From NCBI RefSeq assembly GCF_019733395.1, contig NZ_JAIHOO010000001.1, forward strand, positions 5,123,006 to 5,187,005: a DNA stretch of 64,000 bases, given 5' to 3'. Under the pieces are notes generated by a model. It did not search any database, was not told where the DNA came from, and saw only the letters and a list, made by a program, of their open reading frames with translations. This DNA comes from Lysobacter sp. BMK333-48F3. GTDB taxonomy: Bacteria > Pseudomonadota > Gammaproteobacteria > Xanthomonadales > Xanthomonadaceae. The position numbers were made by a program, and so were the translations under genes. Positions 26,928 through 35,235 of this stretch are shown here, piece by piece; position 1 is the first letter of the stretch, and each line of letters starts with the position of its first letter.

Positions 26928-28013
26928 TCAGTCCAGCCGCTTGCGGAAGCGCGCCACCGCCAGGCTCATCATCACCGCGATGAAAGCCACCAGGTAGACC
27001 ACGTCCGGCCACAGCTCCCACAGGCTGGCGCCGCGCAGCATCACCCCGCGGATCAGGCGCAGGAAATGGGTCATCGGCAGCACCTCGGCCAGCCACTGCG
27101 CGACCCGCGGCATGCCCGCGTAGGGGAACATGAAGCCCGACAGCAGGATCGACGGCAGCAGGATGAACACCGTCATCTGCATGGCCTGGAACTGCGAAGC
27201 GGCCTTGGTCGAGATCATCAGGCCCAGGGTCAGGTTGGCCAGGATCAGCAGGATCGCCGCCAGGTAGACATCGAGCACGCTGCCGCGGATCGGCACCTGG
27301 AACAGCCACAGCCCGAGCAGGATCACCACCGTGGTCTGGATCAGGCCGATCAGCGCGTACGGCAGCACCTTGCCGACCATCAGCTCGGTGCGGCTGACCG
27401 GGGTGGTGATCAGCAGCTCCATGTTGCCGCGCTCGCGTTCTCGCACGATCGCCACCGAGGTGAACATCACCATGGTCATGGTCAGGATCACCCCGATCAG
27501 GCCCGGCACGATGTTGACCGGCGAGCGCCGCTGCGGGTTGTAGAACGCGACCACCCCGATCGGCGCGGTCTTGCGCGGCGCAGTGCCGGCGTCGATCGGC
27601 AATTGCGCCAACTGCACCGCCGCGCTCTGCACCACCGTATCGCTGCCGTCGACCAGCACCTGCACCGCTTCGCGGCCGTCGATGCGCCGGCGTTCGAAAT
27701 CCGCCGGCAGACTGACCCCGACGCTGATCTCTCCGCGCCGCAGCATCGCCATCAGCTGCTCGGGCGTGTCGGCCGTCGCCACCGGCCGGATCACCCCGGT
27801 CGCGACCATGTCCATCACCACGGCGCGCGAGCCGGCCGTGCCCGATTGATCGGCGACCGCCGCAGTGAGCCCGCGCGGATTGAGGTTGATCGCATAGCCG
27901 AACAGCACCAGCTGCCCGACCGGAATCATCACGATCATCGCCAGGGTGATGCGGTCGCGGCGCAGTTGCCGGACCTCCTTGAGCACGATCGCCCACAGCC
28001 GCCGCAGGTTCAT
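26928..28013 (-). CDS. ABC-2 type transporter permease
   Basis: 361 residues. One N-terminal helix (RDRITLAMIVMIPVGQLVLFGYAI), a periplasmic domain of about 130 residues, then five helices including FTSVAIVRERERGNMELLITTPVSRTELMVGKVLPY and SILLSGFMFPYAGMP, the ABC2_membrane_3 pattern seen in YhhJ/YbhS-type exporters. It overlaps the ATPase stop by ATGA. Only one permease gene is present, whereas ybhGFSR has two, so a homodimer is inferred. Confidence 0.93.
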   Translation of the reverse strand: MNLRRLWAIVLKEVRQLRRDRITLAMIVMIPVGQLVLFGYAINLNPRGLTAAVADQSGTAGSRAVVMDMVATGVIRPVATADTPEQLMAMLRRGEISVGVSLPADFERRRIDGREAVQVLVDGSDTVVQSAAVQLAQLPIDAGTAPRKTAPIGVVAFYNPQRRSPVNIVPGLIGVILTMTMVMFTSVAIVRERERGNMELLITTPVSRTELMVGKVLPYALIGLIQTTVVILLGLWLFQVPIRGSVLDVYLAAILLILANLTLGLMISTKAASQFQAMQMTVFILLPSILLSGFMFPYAGMPRVAQWLAEVLPMTHFLRLIRGVMLRGASLWELWPDVVYLVAFIAVMMSLAVARFRKRLD

Positions 28014-28981
28014 GGCCCGATCTCCGCGTCCGCTGCGCGCCGCTCGCGGCCGCGCGTGGCCGAGACGAACACGTCTTCCAGGTTGGGCTTGGCCCGGCCG
28101 ACCTGCGCTTCCAGGCCGGCCGCGCGCAAGGCGTCGCCGAGCGCCCGTTCGCCCAGACGCGCATCGGCCAACAACACCCGCAGGCTGTTGCCGACCTGAG
28201 CCACGCTGAGCACCCCGTCCAGGCCGACCAGCACCCGCTGCGCCTTGCGCGGTTGCGCCGCCAGCACCTCGACCGCGCGCCCGTCGAGTTCGCCGGCGAG
28301 CTCGGCCGGGGTGCCGTCGGCGACCAGCACGCCGCGGTCGAGGATGGCCAGGCGATGGCAACGCTCGGCCTCGTCCATGTAATGGGTCGAGACCAGCAAG
28401 GTGGTGCCGGCATCGGCCAGTTCGAACAGTTTTTCCCAGAAATCGCGCCGCGATTCCGGGTCGACCGCGCTGGTAGGTTCGTCCAGGAACAGCAGCTCGG
28501 GTTCGTGGATCACCGCGCCGGCCAGGGCCAGGCGCTGCTTCTGCCCGCCGCTCATGGTCCCGGCCAGTTGCTTCTGGCGATCGCCGAAGTGGTACTGCTC
28601 GATCAACTCGTCGACCCGCTGGCGCGCGCGCGCGCGCGGCAGTTCCTGCACCGTGGCCAGGAACTCCAGGTTCTCGCGCACGCTGAGGTCCTCGAACAGC
28701 GAGAACTTCTGGGTCATGTAGCCGATCCGCCGGCGCAGCGCTTCGGCCTGGGCGGGAATCTTCAGACCCAGCACTTCGATCTCGCCTTCGCTCGGGGTCA
28801 GCAGCCCGCACAGCATGCGGATGGTGGTCGACTTGCCGGAGCCGTTCGGGCCGAGAAAGCCGTACACGCAGGCGCGCGGCACGCTCAGATCGACCCGGTC
28901 GACCGCGCGCAGCGAGCCGAACTGCTTGCTCATGCCGCGCGCGCGGATGACCAGCGCGGCGGTGTCGGGCAGCGCGCTCAT
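28010..28981 (-). CDS. ABC transporter ATP-binding protein of the efflux operon
   Basis: 323 residues with a single nucleotide-binding domain: Walker A GPNGSGKS (44-51), signature MSGGQ (143-147), Walker B LLFLDEP (164-168) and a switch His in STHYMDEAE. The C-terminal part beyond about 230 is a DUF4162-like extension (EVLAAQPRKAQ). It powers the downstream permease. ATGA overlaps both the membrane-fusion gene and the permease gene. Confidence 0.95.
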   Translation of the reverse strand: MSALPDTAALVIRARGMSKQFGSLRAVDRVDLSVPRACVYGFLGPNGSGKSTTIRMLCGLLTPSEGEIEVLGLKIPAQAEALRRRIGYMTQKFSLFEDLSVRENLEFLATVQELPRARARQRVDELIEQYHFGDRQKQLAGTMSGGQKQRLALAGAVIHEPELLFLDEPTSAVDPESRRDFWEKLFELADAGTTLLVSTHYMDEAERCHRLAILDRGVLVADGTPAELAGELDGRAVEVLAAQPRKAQRVLVGLDGVLSVAQVGNSLRVLLADARLGERALGDALRAAGLEAQVGRAKPNLEDVFVSATRGRERRAADAEIGP

Positions 28982-29952
28982 CGCGCGAACTCGACCCGCA
29001 CCGGCAGCCCGGCCGGCAGCGCGGCCGCATCGGCCTCGGTGAACTCCACTTCGGCCAGATAGCTCAGCCGCGCCGCGTCCTCGCCGGTCAGGGCGTAGTA
29101 CGGGGTGAAGCTGGGTTCGCTGCGGACCATGCGCACCCGGCCGGTCCAGGCGCGCTCGCGGCCCTCGATGCGGATCCGCGCGCTGCCGCCGACCCGCACA
29201 TCGGCGCGGATCGGCTCGGGCACATAGACCCTTGCATACGGACGCTCGCCGACCAGCATCACCGCCAGCGGCGCGCCGACCGGGGCCTGGTCGCCGAGCT
29301 TGTACGGCAGGCTGTCGACCACGCCGTCGCGCGGCGCCAGCACGTCGAGTTTGCTCAGGTTGATCGCCTGCGCCGCGGCCTGGGCCTGCGCGGCGGCGAG
29401 CGCGGCGCGGCCCTGGGCGATGCGTTCGCGGCGGGTGCCGTGTTCGAGCTCCAACAGCGCCGCCTGCGCCGCGCGCACCTGCGCCTGGGCGTTGCCGGCG
29501 GCGGCGCGGGCGCGGTCGACCTCGGCCGCGGCGATCAACCGCTGCCGGCCCAGCGGCTGCACCCGGGCGTAATAGGCCGCCGAGTCGCGCGATTGCGCCT
29601 GCGCGGCGGCGAGGTTGGCGCGCGCCTGCTCGATGCTTTCGCTGCGCGCGCCGGCCTCCAGCTCCGCCAGCGCATCGGCCGATTGCTGCGCCTGCGCCTG
29701 CGCCGCCTGCGACTGGGCGCGGCTGCGGTCGGCCTCCAGTTGCAGCAGGCGCGTGCCGGCGCGCACCCGCTGTCCCTCGCGCACGTCGATGCGCACCACT
29801 TTTTCCGCGACCGGCGCCGGCAAGGCGACTCGGTCCCACTCCAGGGTGCCGAGCGCCTGCGGCGCGGGTTCGCTGCAGGCGGCCAGCAACAGCGCGGCCA
29901 ACAGGGTCGACGCGCGCGCGGCGGCGACCGGGAAATCGAGTCGATAGGTCAT
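28978..29952 (-). CDS. HlyD-family periplasmic adaptor lipoprotein
   Basis: 324 residues. The lipobox LLLAAC at about 23-28 marks an inner-membrane lipoprotein adaptor. Lipoyl-like halves (VVRIDVREGQRVRAGTRLLQLE; DGVVDSLPYKLGDQAPVGAPL) flank a long Ala/Gln-rich coiled coil (about 75-205), followed by a beta-barrel. It resembles YbhG/YhiI adaptors that link an ABC-2 exporter to an outer-membrane channel; no TolC gene is nearby. Overlaps tetR and the ATPase gene. Confidence 0.93.
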   Translation of the reverse strand: MTYRLDFPVAAARASTLLAALLLAACSEPAPQALGTLEWDRVALPAPVAEKVVRIDVREGQRVRAGTRLLQLEADRSRAQSQAAQAQAQQSADALAELEAGARSESIEQARANLAAAQAQSRDSAAYYARVQPLGRQRLIAAAEVDRARAAAGNAQAQVRAAQAALLELEHGTRRERIAQGRAALAAAQAQAAAQAINLSKLDVLAPRDGVVDSLPYKLGDQAPVGAPLAVMLVGERPYARVYVPEPIRADVRVGGSARIRIEGRERAWTGRVRMVRSEPSFTPYYALTGEDAARLSYLAEVEFTEADAAALPAGLPVRVEFAR

Positions 29953-30632
29953 GGCTGCAGTCCGCGGTCGAGCAGGGCCAGCGCGTGCTGGCGTTGCCGG
30001 TCCAGGTCGAGATCGTCGGCGTCGAACAGATGGCGCCAGATCGGCGCGCTGGCGGCCGGGAACAGGGTCAGGCCGATCAGGCTGACCATCAGCAGGCGCG
30101 GATCCAGGTCGGGGTTGATCTTGCCCTCGGCCTGGGCCTGGGCGAAGCGCGCCGCCAGCATCTTCGGCAGCGCCGGCGCGATCTGCTGGAACAACACGCT
30201 CTCGCGCAGCGCGCCGCCTTCGCACAGCACCTCGCGCACCCACAGCGAGGGCAGCCACGGATGCGCCGCGACGATCCGGCCGATGCCGGCGACGAAACCG
30301 CCGATCAGATCGAACACGTCGCGGCCCTCGCCCGCCACGCCCTCGCGCAGGCTCATGAACACCGGCAGCAGGCGTTCGCCGACCACCGCCTGCTGCAGTT
30401 GTTCCTTATCGCCGAAGTAGTAATGCAGCAGCGCCGGATTGACCCCGGCCTCGGCGGCGATCGCGCGCAGCGAGGTCGCGGCGATGCCCTGGCGGGCATA
30501 GCAGGCGATCGCCGCATCGAGCAGGCTCGCGCGCAGATCGGGATTGTCGGCCGCGGCCGGCCGCCCGGGGGCGCGGCGCACGGCGGCGGTCTTGCGCGGT
30601 CGTCCGCGCGACTTGGGGGCTGACGGGTCCAT
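29949..30632 (-). CDS. TetR/AcrR family regulator of the efflux operon
   Basis: 227 residues. After a basic Pro/Arg-rich tail, the helix-turn-helix reads LDAAIACYARQGIAATSLRAIAAEAGVNPALLHYYFGDKEQL. The C-terminal ligand domain resembles CecR (YbiH), which controls ybhGFSR in E. coli. It is the first gene of its own operon (TetR, HlyD, ATPase, permease), each joined by a 4-base overlap, so the regulator and pump are made together. An AT-rich palindrome lies inside the promoter (30640-30668), consistent with self-repression. Confidence 0.93.
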   Translation of the reverse strand: MDPSAPKSRGRPRKTAAVRRAPGRPAAADNPDLRASLLDAAIACYARQGIAATSLRAIAAEAGVNPALLHYYFGDKEQLQQAVVGERLLPVFMSLREGVAGEGRDVFDLIGGFVAGIGRIVAAHPWLPSLWVREVLCEGGALRESVLFQQIAPALPKMLAARFAQAQAEGKINPDLDPRLLMVSLIGLTLFPAASAPIWRHLFDADDLDLDRQRQHALALLDRGLQP

Positions 30633-30639
30633 GCGCCAT

Positions 30640-30668
30640 ATTTAATTCAATGATTAATTAGTTTTCAA
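30640..30668 (-). promoter_or_regulatory. Promoter with embedded operator for the TetR-efflux operon; apparent leaderless start
   Basis: On the minus strand -35 TTGAAA (30663-30668) and -10 TTAAAT (30640-30645) are separated by exactly 17 bases. The spacer and -10 hold the inverted repeat TTAAT-N6-ATTAA (30642-30657), the only AT-rich palindrome in the area. The -10 ends 7 bases before the tetR ATG, which puts the transcription start at or within a base or two of the ATG, so the message would have no leader. Motif spacing is seen; repressor binding is inferred. Confidence 0.7.
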
Positions 30669-30914
30669 GACCGAGCCGACGGACGGTCGGCGGCGATGGC
30701 GGCCCAATCCGGCTGGGCGGCTTTTGTGGGAGCGGCCTACGCTCATGAGCGGCGACGACCGAAGGCCCGCAATGCCGCGCCCCAAGCCCGGCCATCCCCA
30801 CGCCGTGCTGCCGGAAGCGACCGATTGCCCGGGCTTCGGCCGCGACGCTCGCGCCCACCGCTGCGGTTGGTCGCGGCTTACCCCGCTCCTACCCCAACCG
30901 CAGCGACATCGCAC

Positions 30915-30963
<49 letters not shown>

Positions 30964-31134
30964 GAAGAGCTTGGCGCAGAGTCGACCTCGCGATAGCAAC
31001 TCGTAGCCCCGAAGGGCGGCCCGCAGGGATGCGGGCCGTGCGCAGCCAGGCCAAGGATGGCCTGTGCGGAGCAGCCCTGCGCGAGCCTCGTTCGATAGTG
31101 GCTCTTGATTCGAAACAGTTATGGCGTTTTCTTT

Positions 31135-31172
31135 GGTTACTTTCTTTGTCGCCTTGGACAAAGAAAGTGACC
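31135..31172. repeat. Inverted repeat GGTTACTTTCTTTGTC / GACAAAGAAAGTGACC
   Basis: Two 16-bp arms with a single G-U type mismatch and a 6-base loop. Low GC compared with its surroundings. It is a dispersed palindrome often seen in Xanthomonadaceae. It is not followed by a T-run on either strand. Confidence 0.8.
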
Positions 31173-31380
31173 CGGCCGCTTGCGGACGGAAGCTTTGCTT
31201 TGGAGCTTTGCTTTAGAGCTTTGAAGCTTTAGAAGCCTTCGAACGACAGACGGCGCGAAACCGTAAGAACGCGGTCGCGGCTCACGCCGCTCCTACAGGG
31301 GCACAGGACAAAGACGCGGCGAACGGGCGAGATGGCGGTCGCGGCTTGTGACCGAAGGAAATCCCTGTGGGACACCGCCC

Positions 31381-32259
31381 CTACAGGGGAGCAGGTTCGT
31401 CGAGGACGGCGTGGGGATGACGGACGCGCCATCGCCCCAGGGTGTCGGCGCAGTGCGCGGGAATCACCCAAGCCTGCGGATGTTCGCGCTGGAACTGCGC
31501 CAGCCGCTGCACGGTGCGGCGATAGGCCGCCGCGTCGTCCACCGCCAGCCAGCGCGTCAGCCACGGCAGCTCGACCTCGCGCTGCAACTGCTCGCGGCGC
31601 CAGAACGCATCGGCCGCGAGCACGGCCCGCTCGCCCTCGACGGTACGCAGCGCCAGGCCGATCTGGCCGCGCGCATGCCCCGGCAAGGGCAGCACGACCA
31701 CGCTGGCGTCGCCGAACAAATCCCAGCCGGGCCCGAACCCGGCCAGATCGCCGTCCAGCGCACCTGCGCCGCGTTCGTCCAGGCAGTCCAGGCGCGCGGC
31801 GAAATCCGCCGGCAGCAGCTCCTTCCAGATCTGCGCGTGCAGCAAACCGAACCAGCCGCCGCGCTGGACCTGCCGCCAGGCCTGCGCATGGACGACGAAA
31901 CGCGCCTTGGCGAACGGCGCCAGCCCGCCGATGTGGTCGGGGTGGAAATGGCTCAGCACCACCGTGCCGATGTCGGCGCAGCGCAGGCCGCGCTGCTGCA
32001 GCAGGCTGGCCGCGTCGGTGTGCGCCGCCGAGCAGGCGTGGATCGCATGCCGGTAGATCCGGCGCAGGCCGCGGCGCATCGCCGCGCGCGCGGCGGCGCC
32101 GTAACCGCAGTCGAACAGGACCGCGCCGTGGCGCGGATGTTCGATCAGGGCCCAGCCGGCCGGGAAGCTCAGCGCCGGTCCGCCGCCCAGGCCGAGATGG
32201 CGCGGCGACGCGCAGCTGTGGCCGGACACGCCGAGGCTGAGCGCAACGCCCGCGCTCAC
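31381..32259 (-). CDS. MBL-fold metallo-hydrolase, third gene of the ketoacyl synthase operon
   Basis: 292 residues from a GTG that overlaps the stop of the OleD-like gene. The metal motif HFHPDH (104-109) in TVVLSHFHPDHIGGL is the HxHxDH signature of the lactonase and glyoxalase II type metallo-beta-lactamase fold, with PLPGHARGQIGL supplying the next His and AADAFW the bridging Asp. Substrate unknown. Its fixed neighbours point to a hydrolytic step on a thioester, lactone or similar product of the synthase. Its TAG stop lies within a REP-like repeat, so the last codons may vary between strains. Confidence 0.88.
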   Translation of the reverse strand: MSAGVALSLGVSGHSCASPRHLGLGGGPALSFPAGWALIEHPRHGAVLFDCGYGAAARAAMRRGLRRIYRHAIHACSAAHTDAASLLQQRGLRCADIGTVVLSHFHPDHIGGLAPFAKARFVVHAQAWRQVQRGGWFGLLHAQIWKELLPADFAARLDCLDERGAGALDGDLAGFGPGWDLFGDASVVVLPLPGHARGQIGLALRTVEGERAVLAADAFWRREQLQREVELPWLTRWLAVDDAAAYRRTVQRLAQFQREHPQAWVIPAHCADTLGRWRVRHPHAVLDEPAPL

Positions 32260-33275
32260 CGCCGCGGTTCCTTGCGCGCCAGCTCGGCCAGGGTGCGGTT
32301 CAAGGCTTCGTCCATGCCCACCCGCGGCCGATAGCCGAGTTCGGCGCGGGCACGGCCGATGTCCAGGGTCATGTCCACGCTCAACAACTCGATGCCGTAG
32401 CGCAGCAGCGGCGGTTCGCGATCCGGACGCAGATGCCGGTAACCGGCCTCGACCGCGCTGGCCAGCGCCAGCACCAGCGGCCGCGGCAGGCGCCGCTGCG
32501 GGCGCGGCAGCGACAGCGCATCGGCGAGGCGGTCGATCACGCTCCAGATCCGCACCGGTTCGCCATTGCTGATGTTGTATACGCGACCGGCCAGGCGCCA
32601 GGACGCGTCCATCGCCAGCACGATCGCGTCGACCGCGTTGTCGACGTAGGTCAGGTCGACCTCGCAGTCCTCGGCGCCCAGCCGCGTCAGCCGGCCGCGG
32701 CGCAGCGCATCGGCCAGGCGCGGCAGGATCGCGCTGTCGCCGGGACCGAAGATCGCCCGCGGCCGCAACGCGATCGCGGTCACTCCGCCGTCGGCGCAGC
32801 GCGCCAGCACCCGCCGTTCGGCGATCAGCTTGGTCGCGGCGTAGTCGTTGACCGCGCGCGCCGGCAACGGCTGGTCTTCGCGGATGTTCCGCTGCGGACG
32901 GCCGTCGTGATAGATGCCGGGCGTGGAGATGTGCACCAACCGCCGCACCTGATGGGCGACGCAGGCTTCGGCGACGTGATCGCTGGCGTCGATGTTGGCG
33001 GCGACGAAATCCGCGCGCCGGCCCCATGGACTCGACAGCGCCGCGGCATGCACGACGATGTCGGCGCCGCGCAAGGCGCGGTGCACCGCTGCGGCATCGG
33101 TCAGGTCGAGCGCGGCGAACTCGACTCCCTGCGCCTGCAGGGCGCGGCCGCGCGCGGCGTCGCGGCCCAGGCCGAGCACCCGGTCCCAGGGCCGCGCCGC
33201 GGCCAGGCGGCGGGCCAGCGCGCCGCCGAGAAAACCGGTCGCGCCGGTGACGACGATGCGGCGCGGCGCGCTCAT
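32256..33275 (-). CDS. OleD-like NAD(P)-dependent epimerase/dehydrogenase (extended SDR)
   Basis: 339 residues from ATG 33275 (GAAGGAG site). GATGFLG (11-17) binds the dinucleotide; the active site is STPG (117-120) with Y145-x3-K149 (NDYAATK). Blocks shared with OleD of Xanthomonas (VALRPR-IFGPGD, DLTYVDNA, YNISNGEP, REPPLLR) place it in the 3-beta-hydroxysteroid dehydrogenase-like OleD group, which reduces a 2-alkyl-3-ketoacyl chain to the hydroxyacid in head-to-head hydrocarbon synthesis. It lies between a ketoacyl synthase III and an MBL hydrolase; oleB and oleC are not here. Confidence 0.85.
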   Translation of the reverse strand: MSAPRRIVVTGATGFLGGALARRLAAARPWDRVLGLGRDAARGRALQAQGVEFAALDLTDAAAVHRALRGADIVVHAAALSSPWGRRADFVAANIDASDHVAEACVAHQVRRLVHISTPGIYHDGRPQRNIREDQPLPARAVNDYAATKLIAERRVLARCADGGVTAIALRPRAIFGPGDSAILPRLADALRRGRLTRLGAEDCEVDLTYVDNAVDAIVLAMDASWRLAGRVYNISNGEPVRIWSVIDRLADALSLPRPQRRLPRPLVLALASAVEAGYRHLRPDREPPLLRYGIELLSVDMTLDIGRARAELGYRPRVGMDEALNRTLAELARKEPRR

Positions 33276-33341
33276 GCCGCCCGCTCCTTCGCCCTGGAGG
33301 TCCGCGGACCGCAAACTCGGTTAGTCCTCGGCACCGGCATC

Positions 33342-34460
33342 TCAGTAGGTCAGGGTCATGCCGACCCCGGACAGGCCGGCGCCGGTACCGAGCAGCACGC
33401 CGCGTTCGCCGCGGCGGATCGCGCCTTCGCGCACGCCCTGCTCCAGCGCCAGCGGAATCGAAGCCGCGATGCAGTTGCCGGTCTGCTCGAGCGTGCGCAC
33501 CAGGCGCGCATGGTCGAAGCCGATCTGCTCGATCACTTCCAGCGCGGCGCGGCTGGCCTGGTGGCTGACCACCCAGCGCAGTTCGCGCCGCGCCTGCCGG
33601 TCTTCCAGCGCCAGCGCGCGCATCACGTGCGGTACCAGGCGGATGCCGCTGCGCAATGCCGCCGGCCCCTGCATGCTGAAGTAGGCGTCTTCCGGCCGGG
33701 TCGACGCGCCCAACGGCGGCCGCCAGCTGCCGCCGCCGCGCAAGGTGGTCAACTCCACGCCCTCGCCCAGGGTGCGCCAGGCGACCCGGTGGATCCGGCT
33801 CGGGCTGTCGTCCGGCGCGCGCTCCAGCACCGCCGCCGCGGCGCCGTCGCCGAACAGGGTGCAGACTTCGGCGTCGGCGAAGTTCAAACCGACCGAGGCG
33901 ATCTCGCTGCTGACCACCAGGGCGCGTTCGATCCGGCCGTGGTGGATGCGTTCGGCCGCCATCTCCACCGCGGCGACGAAGCTCAGGCAGGTCGCATGCA
34001 CCGACAGGGCCGGGATACCCGATCGGCCGAGTCCGAGTTCGCGCTGCAGCAAGGGGCCGCCGTCGGGAATCGCCCGCTCGGCCGATCCTGAAGCGTTGAC
34101 GATCAGCTCGACCTGCTCCGGCGCGATGCCGGCGCGCTCGCAGGCCTGCAGCGCGGCCTGCGCGCCCATCCAACTGGCGCGTTCGCGCTCGGGTTCGGCC
34201 CAATGACGGAACGCCACGCCGCTGTGCTGCAGCGCCCAGCCCTCGGCCAGGCCGGCGCGCGCTTCGATTTCGGCGCTGGCGACGCGGCGTTGCGGCAGGT
34301 AGCGGCCGAGCCCGGCGATGCGCACACGCCAATCCAGCTCCGGGCCGGCGTCGCGGCGGCGCCGCGGCTCGCCCGCATCGGCCGGCGCGGCGGGCTGCGG
34401 CTCGCGCTGCGCACGCTCTTGATCTGCACGTTCCCGATCGATGTTCTGGATATCCCTCAT
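33342..34460 (-). CDS. Ketoacyl synthase III (FabH/OleA-like thiolase fold)
   Basis: 372 residues if the ATG at 34460 is used; the family core begins near residue 46 (VRIAGLGRYLP), so a downstream GTG is possible and the charged first 45 residues are doubtful. The triad is intact: C158 (HATCLSF), H300 (VVSHQAS) and N329 (QTGNCIAAS). LFGDGAAAAVLER and GTGAGLSGVGMTL are KAS III features. It differs clearly from the OleA of X. campestris as I remember it. It could join two acyl chains, or an acyl chain and a malonyl unit. First gene of the operon with the OleD-like and MBL genes. Confidence 0.85.
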   Translation of the reverse strand: MRDIQNIDRERADQERAQREPQPAAPADAGEPRRRRDAGPELDWRVRIAGLGRYLPQRRVASAEIEARAGLAEGWALQHSGVAFRHWAEPERERASWMGAQAALQACERAGIAPEQVELIVNASGSAERAIPDGGPLLQRELGLGRSGIPALSVHATCLSFVAAVEMAAERIHHGRIERALVVSSEIASVGLNFADAEVCTLFGDGAAAAVLERAPDDSPSRIHRVAWRTLGEGVELTTLRGGGSWRPPLGASTRPEDAYFSMQGPAALRSGIRLVPHVMRALALEDRQARRELRWVVSHQASRAALEVIEQIGFDHARLVRTLEQTGNCIAASIPLALEQGVREGAIRRGERGVLLGTGAGLSGVGMTLTY

Positions 34461-34578
34461 CGCGACGCAGTATGAGCCTTGCCTCGCGGTTTGCCGATAC
34501 GGACCGACTGCCGCGGCCACTGGCCTGGACCGCGCGCATCGCCCATGCTCGACGCCCGTCCCGCCTCCTCGCCGCGCC

Positions 34579-35235
34579 TTGCACGCGAACCCTCCCTCGC
34601 CGCCCGCCGTCCTGCCCTGGCCGCGCCGCCTCGCCATCGTGCTGGCGACGACGCTGCTCGGCGCGCTCGTCTACCTGGGCATCAACGCCCAGCCCTGGCG
34701 CCCGCCGTCGAGCCTGCCGCCCAGCCTCGTCGACGCGGCGATCGGTTGGCGGGCCTGGGCGATCTGGCCGTACTGGGCGATGTTGGCGACCGGGCCGGCG
34801 CTGGCGCTGGCGATTCGCGAACGCGCGCTGTTCTACGCCACCTTGCGCGCTTTCGCCCTTGCCGCCGGGCTCAATGCGGCGGTGTGGCTGGCCTGGCCGA
34901 CCCGGATCGCGCGCCGGCCGCTGCCGGACGGCCTGGATGCCTGGACCGAGGCCGCCTGGCGCGCGCTGTATGCGCTGGACGGGCCGCACAACTGCTTTCC
35001 GTCCGGCCACATCACCATTCCGGCGGTGGCCGCGGTCGGTTTCGCCGCGCAGTATCCGCGCGCCCGCGGCGCGGTCGCGGTCGGCCTGGCCGCGCTGGCG
35101 CCGAGCGTGATCGCCACCGGCCAGCATTACGCCTGGGACATCGCCGGCGGCCTGCTCACCGCGACCTTGGGTCTCTTGCTCGCCGGCGCGCCCTTGTGGC
35201 GAGCTGTGCCCCCGCCCGCTGTCGCCTGCCGTTGA
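34579..35235 (+). CDS. PAP2 superfamily phosphatase, inositolphosphotransferase-like membrane protein
   Basis: 218 residues from TTG 34579; the frame is open back to an ATG at 34441 that would overlap the divergent synthase start. No clear ribosome site decides this. Five to six helices and the PAP2 motifs are present: RRPLPDGLDAW, NCFPSGHITIP and TGQHYAWDIAGG, with the two catalytic His residues. The spacing resembles PAP2_3 (Aur1-like) proteins that act on phospholipid head groups at the outer face of the inner membrane. It is divergent from the ketoacyl synthase operon by about 118 bases. Confidence 0.78.
   Translation: MHANPPSPPAVLPWPRRLAIVLATTLLGALVYLGINAQPWRPPSSLPPSLVDAAIGWRAWAIWPYWAMLATGPALALAIRERALFYATLRAFALAAGLNAAVWLAWPTRIARRPLPDGLDAWTEAAWRALYALDGPHNCFPSGHITIPAVAAVGFAAQYPRARGAVAVGLAALAPSVIATGQHYAWDIAGGLLTATLGLLLAGAPLWRAVPPPAVACR

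Follow-up and report, generated by a model that had tools for sequence, protein, structure and literature searches.

A ketosynthase, reductase and hydrolase operon in Lysobacter as the possible core of an acyl-lipid pathway split over two loci

We examined a stretch of 64,000 nucleotides from Lysobacter sp. BMK333-48F3 (contig NZ_JAIHOO010000001.1, positions 5,123,006 to 5,187,005; hereafter the window) and within it an operon of three genes, which encode a stand-alone ketosynthase (KS) of the beta-ketoacyl-acyl carrier protein synthase III (KAS III) type, an OleD-like extended short-chain dehydrogenase/reductase (SDR) and a hydrolase of the metallo-beta-lactamase (MBL) fold. We suggest that this trio would be one half of a pathway that is split over two loci in Lysobacter, because the other half, a group of genes that we call tail A, stands at a second locus in all 12 Lysobacter genomes that carry the trio. 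The linkage of trio and tail is well supported. That the trio and its tail form one pathway we consider quite likely. The wider proposal, in which the trio forms the central part of an acyl-lipid pathway, as yet uncharacterised and divided in this manner, is the explanation that we favour, and we hold it with slightly less than even confidence.

The linkage emerges from a comparison of 149 relatives drawn from the order to which the window belongs, in which genomes are designated by G numbers (G000 being the source genome) and inspected loci by L numbers. The trio was recognised in 19 of them by a synthase score above 195 bits and in three more that were found later, through control loci and follow-up; the SDR and MBL genes were seen beside each of these synthases, and weaker synthase matches were inspected in part. 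Sixteen of the 22 trio genomes carry tail A, five carry another set of genes that we call tail B, one has neither and none has both. Tail A consists of a PRK06849 protein (ATP-grasp-like) and a GNAT-like protein, joined in most inspected cases by a Rieske oxygenase, and tail B of a GT21-type and a GT28-type glycosyltransferase. Strong matches to the PRK06849 protein (above 380 bits) were present in 17 of the 149 genomes, a count from which three further matches of 126-138 bits were excluded, and the GNAT-like gene is confined to these 17, being present in every one of them. G035, G081, G032, G079 and G099 have tail B next to the trio; the GT28 gene of this tail was matched in exactly five of the 149 genomes, all of which have the trio and none of which has tail A. 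The association between trio and tail gives a Fisher p of 2.5e-23 over genomes and of 1.3e-9 with one vote per genus, values in which kinship is not fully corrected. We note that in three tail B loci (L195:7346-13143, L194:6621-12459 and L041:3159-9010) the trio is followed by the two glycosyltransferases with a gene call of 113-203 amino acids between them, which matches none of our query proteins, and that this cluster looks like a glycolipid pathway.

Where the genes of tail A stand relative to the trio differs between genomes. A single cluster of KS, SDR, MBL, PRK06849 and GNAT-like gene was found in G057, G068, G076 and G025. All of these except G068 add a Rieske gene to it, which in G076 and G025 is preceded by a GGDEF-type gene (identified in G076). 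Synthase and PRK06849 gene are apart from each other in each of the 12 trio genomes of Lysobacter, three of which have them on different contigs. The three-gene tail was whole at all seven Lysobacter loci inspected; in the source genome its members lie together at the second locus of Table 1, and they share 60/49/59% identity with the tail of G057. An origin of the Lysobacter trio from a distant donor, joined to a native tail, was considered and not kept: the grouping of the Xanthomonadaceae sequences in one clade was rejected for the KS (p 0.028) and not for the SDR (p 0.184), and the MBL rows group together with a support of 61.

Cases of natural loss bear on the same question. The site between the TetR and PhoH genes is empty of the trio and of the PAP2-type gene that faces it in G010 and G012. 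In G005 and G017 the KS is lost and tail A is absent too, with the SDR, MBL and PAP2-type genes kept, and this joint absence of synthase and tail supports the idea of one pathway. A third KAS III domain is encoded at another place in each of these genomes (the match in G017 being weak); the one in G005 (L193:6582-8483) is the C-terminal domain of a protein of 633 residues that also carries a haem-oxygenase-like domain, and it is distinct from the trio synthase. Another Lysobacter genome has three more KAS III C-terminal domains within about 13 kb (G014:C1:4079551-4092725).

The trio reaches well beyond this order. We scanned 84,980 species, each represented by one genome, with a single peptide pattern derived from a synthase alignment, which gave 273 confirmed relatives; the best 80 of these 273 were examined, and all public counts below refer to these 80, of whose fetched stretches 27 stop 2.5 kb or less from the synthase in one direction or both. 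In 47 of the 80 the fetched stretch has both an SDR and an MBL on the strand of the KS, namely in 25/35 from Chloroflexota, 6/7 from Pseudomonadota, 6/6 from Bacillota, 4/4 from Planctomycetota, 2/5 from Myxococcota and 4/4 unclassified, with 0/14 in Chlorobiota, 0/2 in Actinomycetota, 0/2 in Cyanobacteriota and 0/1 in Hydrogenedentota. The view of the initial annotation, made from the window alone, that the three genes belong together is upheld: they form a conserved unit. They recur together in five named phyla. As a control, an SDR or MBL match within 1.5 kb was found at 45 of 63 synthases of the scan versus 2 of 28 FabH/OleA loci, and both positive control loci proved to be misnamed trio synthases. 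The Chlorobiota relatives (L083, L085, L091, L095, L110 and others) have synthases of 42-48% identity and no SDR-MBL pair nearby.

Gene order around the trio varies across these phyla, being OleC-like/SDR/MBL/GNAT-like/KS/PRK06849 in many Chloroflexota clusters and KS/PRK06849/SDR/MBL/TIGR02304/GNAT-like in Bacillota such as Brevibacillus. The clusters often include a ligase of the kind that uses a free carboxylate, a PRK06849-type gene in 41 of the 80 stretches and an OleC-like or TIGR02304 ligase in others, a frequency in keeping with an MBL that releases an acid. No match to TIGR02304 was found in the Lysobacter source genome. The OleC-like ligase stands beside the trio at 18 of the 80 loci (L073, L076, L078, L122 and 14 others), in Chloroflexota, and the two that were tested exceed the PRK09274 cut-off of 478, at 556 and 607 bits, while staying below the cut-offs of both olefin beta-lactone synthetase models. 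These loci carry the trio together with the PRK06849 and GNAT-like genes and may represent a beta-lactone variant in that phylum.

The window synthase has the complete catalytic triad C158/H300/N329 (in the numbering of the 372-residue reading), in the contexts HATC, SHQ and GNC. Its start codon is uncertain, since the N-terminal 45 residues or so are weakly conserved and the conserved part begins at about residue 45. The best curated model is PRK07204, matched over the whole length at 290 bits, under its cut-off of 402, which the G057 relative (383) also does not reach; PRK09352 gives 209 bits, the FabH model 192 and the OleA model PRK09258 only 109 against a cut-off of 285. Among solved structures in the Protein Data Bank (PDB) the closest relatives are CorB (297 bits) and MxnB (292), and any FabH reaches at most 164. 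The nearest named relative in the public scan, at 90% identity, is from Lysobacter antibioticus, and identity to the OleA of the same genome is 29%.

A single alignment position separates these enzymes further. At the site of the catalytic Glu117 of OleA the window synthase has Ile131, followed by the conserved Pro132. The column holds Glu in 11 of 11 OleA rows. The trio clade, whose 93 rows are the window synthase, one MxnB-like protein and 91 fetched relatives (three genomes being entered twice), has Ile, Leu or Val there without exception. Of nine rows taken as FabH, seven have Phe and two (L027 and L031) have Met; these two are diverged trio synthases, and the tree groups them within the trio clade. 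In PMC7064751, Glu117 followed by Pro is found in all but two of the OleA proteins treated there, and the residue is essential for condensation in the Xanthomonas enzyme. PMC4578411 describes PpyS as needing the same glutamate, and MxnB and CorB as carrying Val at this place, with a substrate carbon that is flanked by two carbonyl groups. On the synthase tree, OleA forms a single supported branch separate from the trio clade. We conclude that the window synthase, as judged by its sequence, is not an OleA.

This conclusion decides against the pathway that was first proposed for the window, a reduced Ole route in which an OleA-like synthase would fuse two acyl-CoAs, OleD would reduce the product and a lactonase-type MBL would replace OleB and OleC to give a beta-hydroxy acid or a ketone. 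Part of the evidence is in its favour, since the two OleD models are the best curated matches of the SDR and the OleC-like ligase adjoins the trio at the Chloroflexota loci described above, a point that speaks for the earlier reading. The glutamate, however, which is essential in OleA (PMC7064751), is replaced throughout the trio clade, and the OleA model score falls far short. Furthermore, the genome has Ole genes of its own: an OleA at 1,970,454 (452 bits against the PRK09258 cut-off of 285), and, within about 1.983-1.987 Mb, an OleD (640 bits, cut-off 580), an OleC at about 1.984 Mb (1,007 bits against a cut-off of 900 for the Xanthomonas-type olefin beta-lactone synthetase) and, directly before OleC, a candidate OleB of the haloalkane-dehalogenase type (140 bits, under the cut-off of 241). 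The 1.98 Mb locus holds the only OleC and OleD matches above cut-off in the genome, and OleA is present in all 20 genomes of the genus that were compared, whatever their trio state. A canonical Ole set elsewhere had been named as a finding that could account for the operon; such a set exists, with OleB as a candidate, and the window genes nevertheless stay separate paralogues that it does not explain. The absence of OleB and OleC next to the operon is correct as stated, neither being among the window neighbours that were identified, yet to see the MBL as taking their place is the wrong frame here, since in the order to which the window belongs the trio is partnered by the ATP-grasp-like, GNAT-like and Rieske genes or by the two glycosyltransferases. 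We therefore rejected the reduced Ole route, which we regard as quite improbable.

The likeness of the SDR to OleD, in turn, is genuine in kind and limited in degree. The protein has GATGFLG at residue 11, YAATK at 145, NGEP at 237 and REPPLL at 286, and hence the GxxGFxG and YxxxK motifs of an extended SDR. Of all curated families it matches the two OleD models best (245 and 218 bits, with the next model, not of OleD, at 112), in line with the likeness that the initial annotation saw in the motifs; against the OleD threshold NF042422 of 580 bits, however, it falls far below, whereas the OleD of the same genome reaches it. The two paralogues share 38% identity, and the corresponding motifs of the genome's OleD are NGDP, GEPPMT and YATTK, alike in kind and not by letter. 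The window SDR is most naturally taken for a putative beta-keto reductase like OleD.

For the MBL hydrolase the metal site is clear. The motif HFHPDH lies at residues 104-109, and the ligands H104, H106, D108, H109, H195, D217 and H269, which comprise HxHxDH followed by His, Asp and His, are invariant in 38 of 38 trio MBLs. Its best curated matches are the AttM/AhlS lactonase models, at 73 and 48 bits against cut-offs of 390 and 475 (the former, NF045700, being the threshold for N-acyl-homoserine lactone (AHL) lactonases). In lactonases a Tyr three residues after the bridging Asp is catalytic. The DAIY of the lactonase GcL, which holds this Tyr, aligns with DAxW in the trio enzymes, and the Trp (Trp220 in the window protein) is invariant in 38 of 38. 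MBL-type thioesterases are known to work alongside KAS III enzymes, as PqsE does. We read the window enzyme as a putative thioesterase because enzymes that act on free carboxylates are frequent in such clusters.

Two explanations would instead keep the MBL as a lactonase. One of these, in which it is an independent quorum-quenching enzyme that lies in the operon by chance, draws on the AttM/AhlS models being its best curated matches; the MBL nevertheless keeps company with this KS and SDR across five phyla while gene order changes, and we consider this explanation very improbable indeed. The other envisages a signal of the alpha-pyrone or butenolide type, with a CorB-like KS fusing two chains to a lactone, the SDR modifying it and the MBL opening or recycling it. 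Makers of alpha-pyrones are indeed the closest solved relatives of the KS, and AHL lactonases the closest structures of the MBL, but the lactonase Tyr is aligned to Trp throughout the trio MBLs, no gene of the size of a polyketide synthase (PKS) stands nearby and the tails are ill-suited to a small pyrone, so that a signal of this type is unlikely. No PKS modules were found beside the window synthase in the genes of the window that were run against Pfam, and the largest gene called at 23-46 kb is of 690 amino acids. Very long open frames do occur at the ends of G000:C1 (3-49 kb and 5.21-5.22 Mb), of about 2,500-6,800 residues with many matches of the AMP-ligase type, which are probably nonribosomal peptide synthetase (NRPS) genes.

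Returning to the acyl-lipid pathway that we favour, its chemistry may be ordered as follows. The KS would load an acyl chain on C158 and condense it with an activated nucleophile, either malonyl-acyl carrier protein (malonyl-ACP) or a beta-ketoacyl thioester; such a nucleophile is proposed because the enzyme is without the OleA-type glutamate that would deprotonate a plain acyl chain. The OleD-like SDR would then reduce the beta-ketone to the beta-alcohol, and the MBL would cleave the thioester to release a free, possibly 2-substituted, beta-hydroxy acid. With tail A, the ATP-grasp-like enzyme could couple the carboxylate to an amine, the GNAT-like protein could add an acyl group and the Rieske oxygenase could oxidise the product; with tail B, the two glycosyltransferases would act instead, presumably on the hydroxyl group. 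We favour a beta-hydroxy acid as the common intermediate because its hydroxyl suits a glycosyltransferase and its free carboxylate a ligase, and on this point the initial annotation, which had named such an acid among the products, was sensible. The order itself is tentative and on balance doubtful, our lower confidence being due to the weak matches behind the ATP-grasp and GNAT labels.

The nature of the nucleophile divides the possibilities. In the conservative branch of the favoured explanation, which is plain two-carbon elongation, a FabH-type KS with a larger primer pocket would use malonyl-ACP, and the SDR and MBL would help to supply the tails with an ordinary 3-hydroxy fatty acid. The complete Cys-His-Asn triad and the PRK09352 and FabH scores speak for this, and a small side chain in place of the FabH Phe would fit a larger primer; CorB and MxnB, on the other hand, match far better than the best FabH in the PDB, and MxnB fuses two beta-keto chains (PMC5724707). 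We see this branch as a real possibility, if short of a likely one. A bolder version would have a CorB-type synthase fuse two activated chains and the SDR and MBL thioesterase deliver a free branched beta-hydroxy acid, with interchangeable tails (ATP-grasp-like, GNAT-like and Rieske; an AMP ligase; two glycosyltransferases) leading to amide or glycolipid products in at least five phyla. Such an undescribed class of acyl lipids is, in our estimation, rather unlikely.

Several observations weigh against the proposal of a trio-centred acyl-lipid pathway. In the KS-less genomes G005 and G017 the remaining SDR and MBL genes (L182:4223-6153 and L186:7341-9244) are under purifying selection (dN/dS 0.107 and 0.088); they evidently have some use without the KS and the tail, which the favoured explanation does not cover. 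G066 has the trio and neither tail, and G006 has tail A and no KS, in an assembly that is also without PhoH and HlyD, so that its locus cannot be judged. The PRK06849 family is named only 'hypothetical protein', and the source genome's member scores 298 bits against a cut-off of 406; it gives 28 bits to a carbamoyl-phosphate-synthase-like model, the best such match among the proteins tested being 43 bits (cut-off 218), and neither it nor the genome's GNAT-like protein matches any Pfam family. Its ATP-grasp-like label draws on these weak profile matches, and the GNAT label on public names and on PF13480 assignments precomputed for part of the homologues, with the PF13480 cut-off exceeded by 0.2 bits in the one Bacillota relative tested; the Rieske label is firm. 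The trees do not fix the attachment point of OleA or of FabH: approximately unbiased (AU) tests reject neither a grouping of the window KS with OleA (p 0.583, the constrained tree being slightly better) nor one with FabH (p 0.198), and both results hinge on where long outgroup branches attach. The solved structures nearest to the MBL belong to AHL lactonases, GcL among them (about 87 bits), and not to thioesterases, and the SDR-MBL pair is absent from the fetched stretches at 14 of 14 Chlorobiota loci. Finally, conservation, linkage, the split, purifying selection and the residue changes are observed, and the chemistry of the trio and of its tails is inferred.

The three genes themselves lie as the initial annotation had described them, adjacent on one strand, with the SDR and MBL genes overlapping by the four bases GTGA at 32259-32256 (Table 1). 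They have no internal stops and their dN/dS values against the near relative G009 are low (0.056 for the KS, 0.055 for the SDR and 0.157 for the MBL), and hence they are maintained genes. A search of positions 30600-34800 found no promoter-like sites and five terminator-like sites, with 2.1 expected.

Table 1. Coordinates and assignment of the operon, its neighbours and the second locus (window positions unless given on contig G000:C1)
Feature	Position	Strand	Basis
KAS III-type ketosynthase, stand-alone, PRK07204/CorB-MxnB kind	33342-34460	minus	motifs, profile scores
OleD-like extended SDR (putative beta-keto reductase)	32256-33275	minus	motifs, profile scores, alignment with the genome's own OleD
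MBL-fold hydrolase, full dinuclear metal-ligand set (putative thioesterase)	31381-32259	minus	motifs, alignment
PAP2-type gene, divergent companion, membership uncertain	34471-35235 (start maybe 34579)	plus	Pfam near cut-off
TetR-HlyD-ABC-permease exporter	26928-30632	minus, downstream of the trio on the same strand	Pfam
Trio on the contig	G000:C1:5154386-5157465		
Tail A: PRK06849, GNAT-like and Rieske genes	G000:C1:177580-180879		

The PAP2-type enzyme that had been noted as facing the operon is indeed there, with a Pfam score of 26.6 that lies just below the cut-off of 27. It is missing at both inspected empty trio sites (G010 and G012). Because it was not seen adjoining the trio in five of the 12 Lysobacter trio genomes (G002, G004, G008, G014 and G018), we regard it as dispensable, and its membership in the system is uncertain. 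The TetR-HlyD-ABC-permease genes were ruled out as members of the system: an HlyD match was found in 39 of the 60 genomes searched, it is present in seven Lysobacter genomes without the KS (all except G006), and HlyD adjoins the empty trio site at both compact sites inspected (G010 and G012). The HlyD of this exporter is kept across the genus and beyond, whatever the trio state.

We would place the module among acyl pathways that are initiated by KAS III enzymes. In Pseudomonas quinolone synthesis, PqsD, a KAS III enzyme, works with PqsE, a thioesterase of the MBL fold that releases a beta-keto acid; the substrate there is aromatic and an OleD-like reductase is absent. The enzymes CorB and MxnB, of the corallopyronin and myxopyronin pathways, are the top solved relatives of the window synthase and share its Cys-His-Asn triad and a small hydrophobic residue at the Glu117 position of OleA, Val in theirs (PMC4578411) and Ile in the window. 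They work, however, in large PKS/NRPS pathways that close an alpha-pyrone (PMC5724707), whereas the partners in the window are an OleD-like SDR and an MBL. The OleABCD and beta-lactone oleACD systems resemble the module in their OleD-like reductase and in the OleC-like ligase often found beside the Chloroflexota trio, and differ from it in that the window synthase is without the OleA base and the genome has its separate Ole genes. PRK07204 is the best curated synthase model, with a name (beta-ketoacyl-ACP synthase III) that gives no specific role, and the window protein stays under its cut-off. The MBL-fold AHL lactonases (GcL, AttM, AiiA) share with the window MBL the fold family and all metal ligands, but have a Tyr in GcL where the trio enzymes have an invariant Trp, and the window scores are far under the family cut-offs. 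No account of the trio module or of its tails appeared among the papers listed by searches of the open-access literature, a body that leaves most subscription journals outside its scope, and we rate the enzyme families as known and the module with interchangeable tails as apparently undescribed.

These comparisons suggest a rule for annotation, namely that an OleD-like reductase with a KAS III neighbour should be taken to indicate synthesis of an olefin or a beta-lactone only where the Glu-Pro signature is present in the synthase. They also bear on how such pathways are found. Lysobacter is a genus studied for its antibiotics, and since the pathway proposed here would be split over two loci in it, a gene-cluster search based on proximity would see two unrelated fragments. 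If the linkage of trio and tails is true, it would point to one uncharacterised acyl module, completed by interchangeable finishing enzymes, across several phyla, the Anaerolineales and Lysobacter included.

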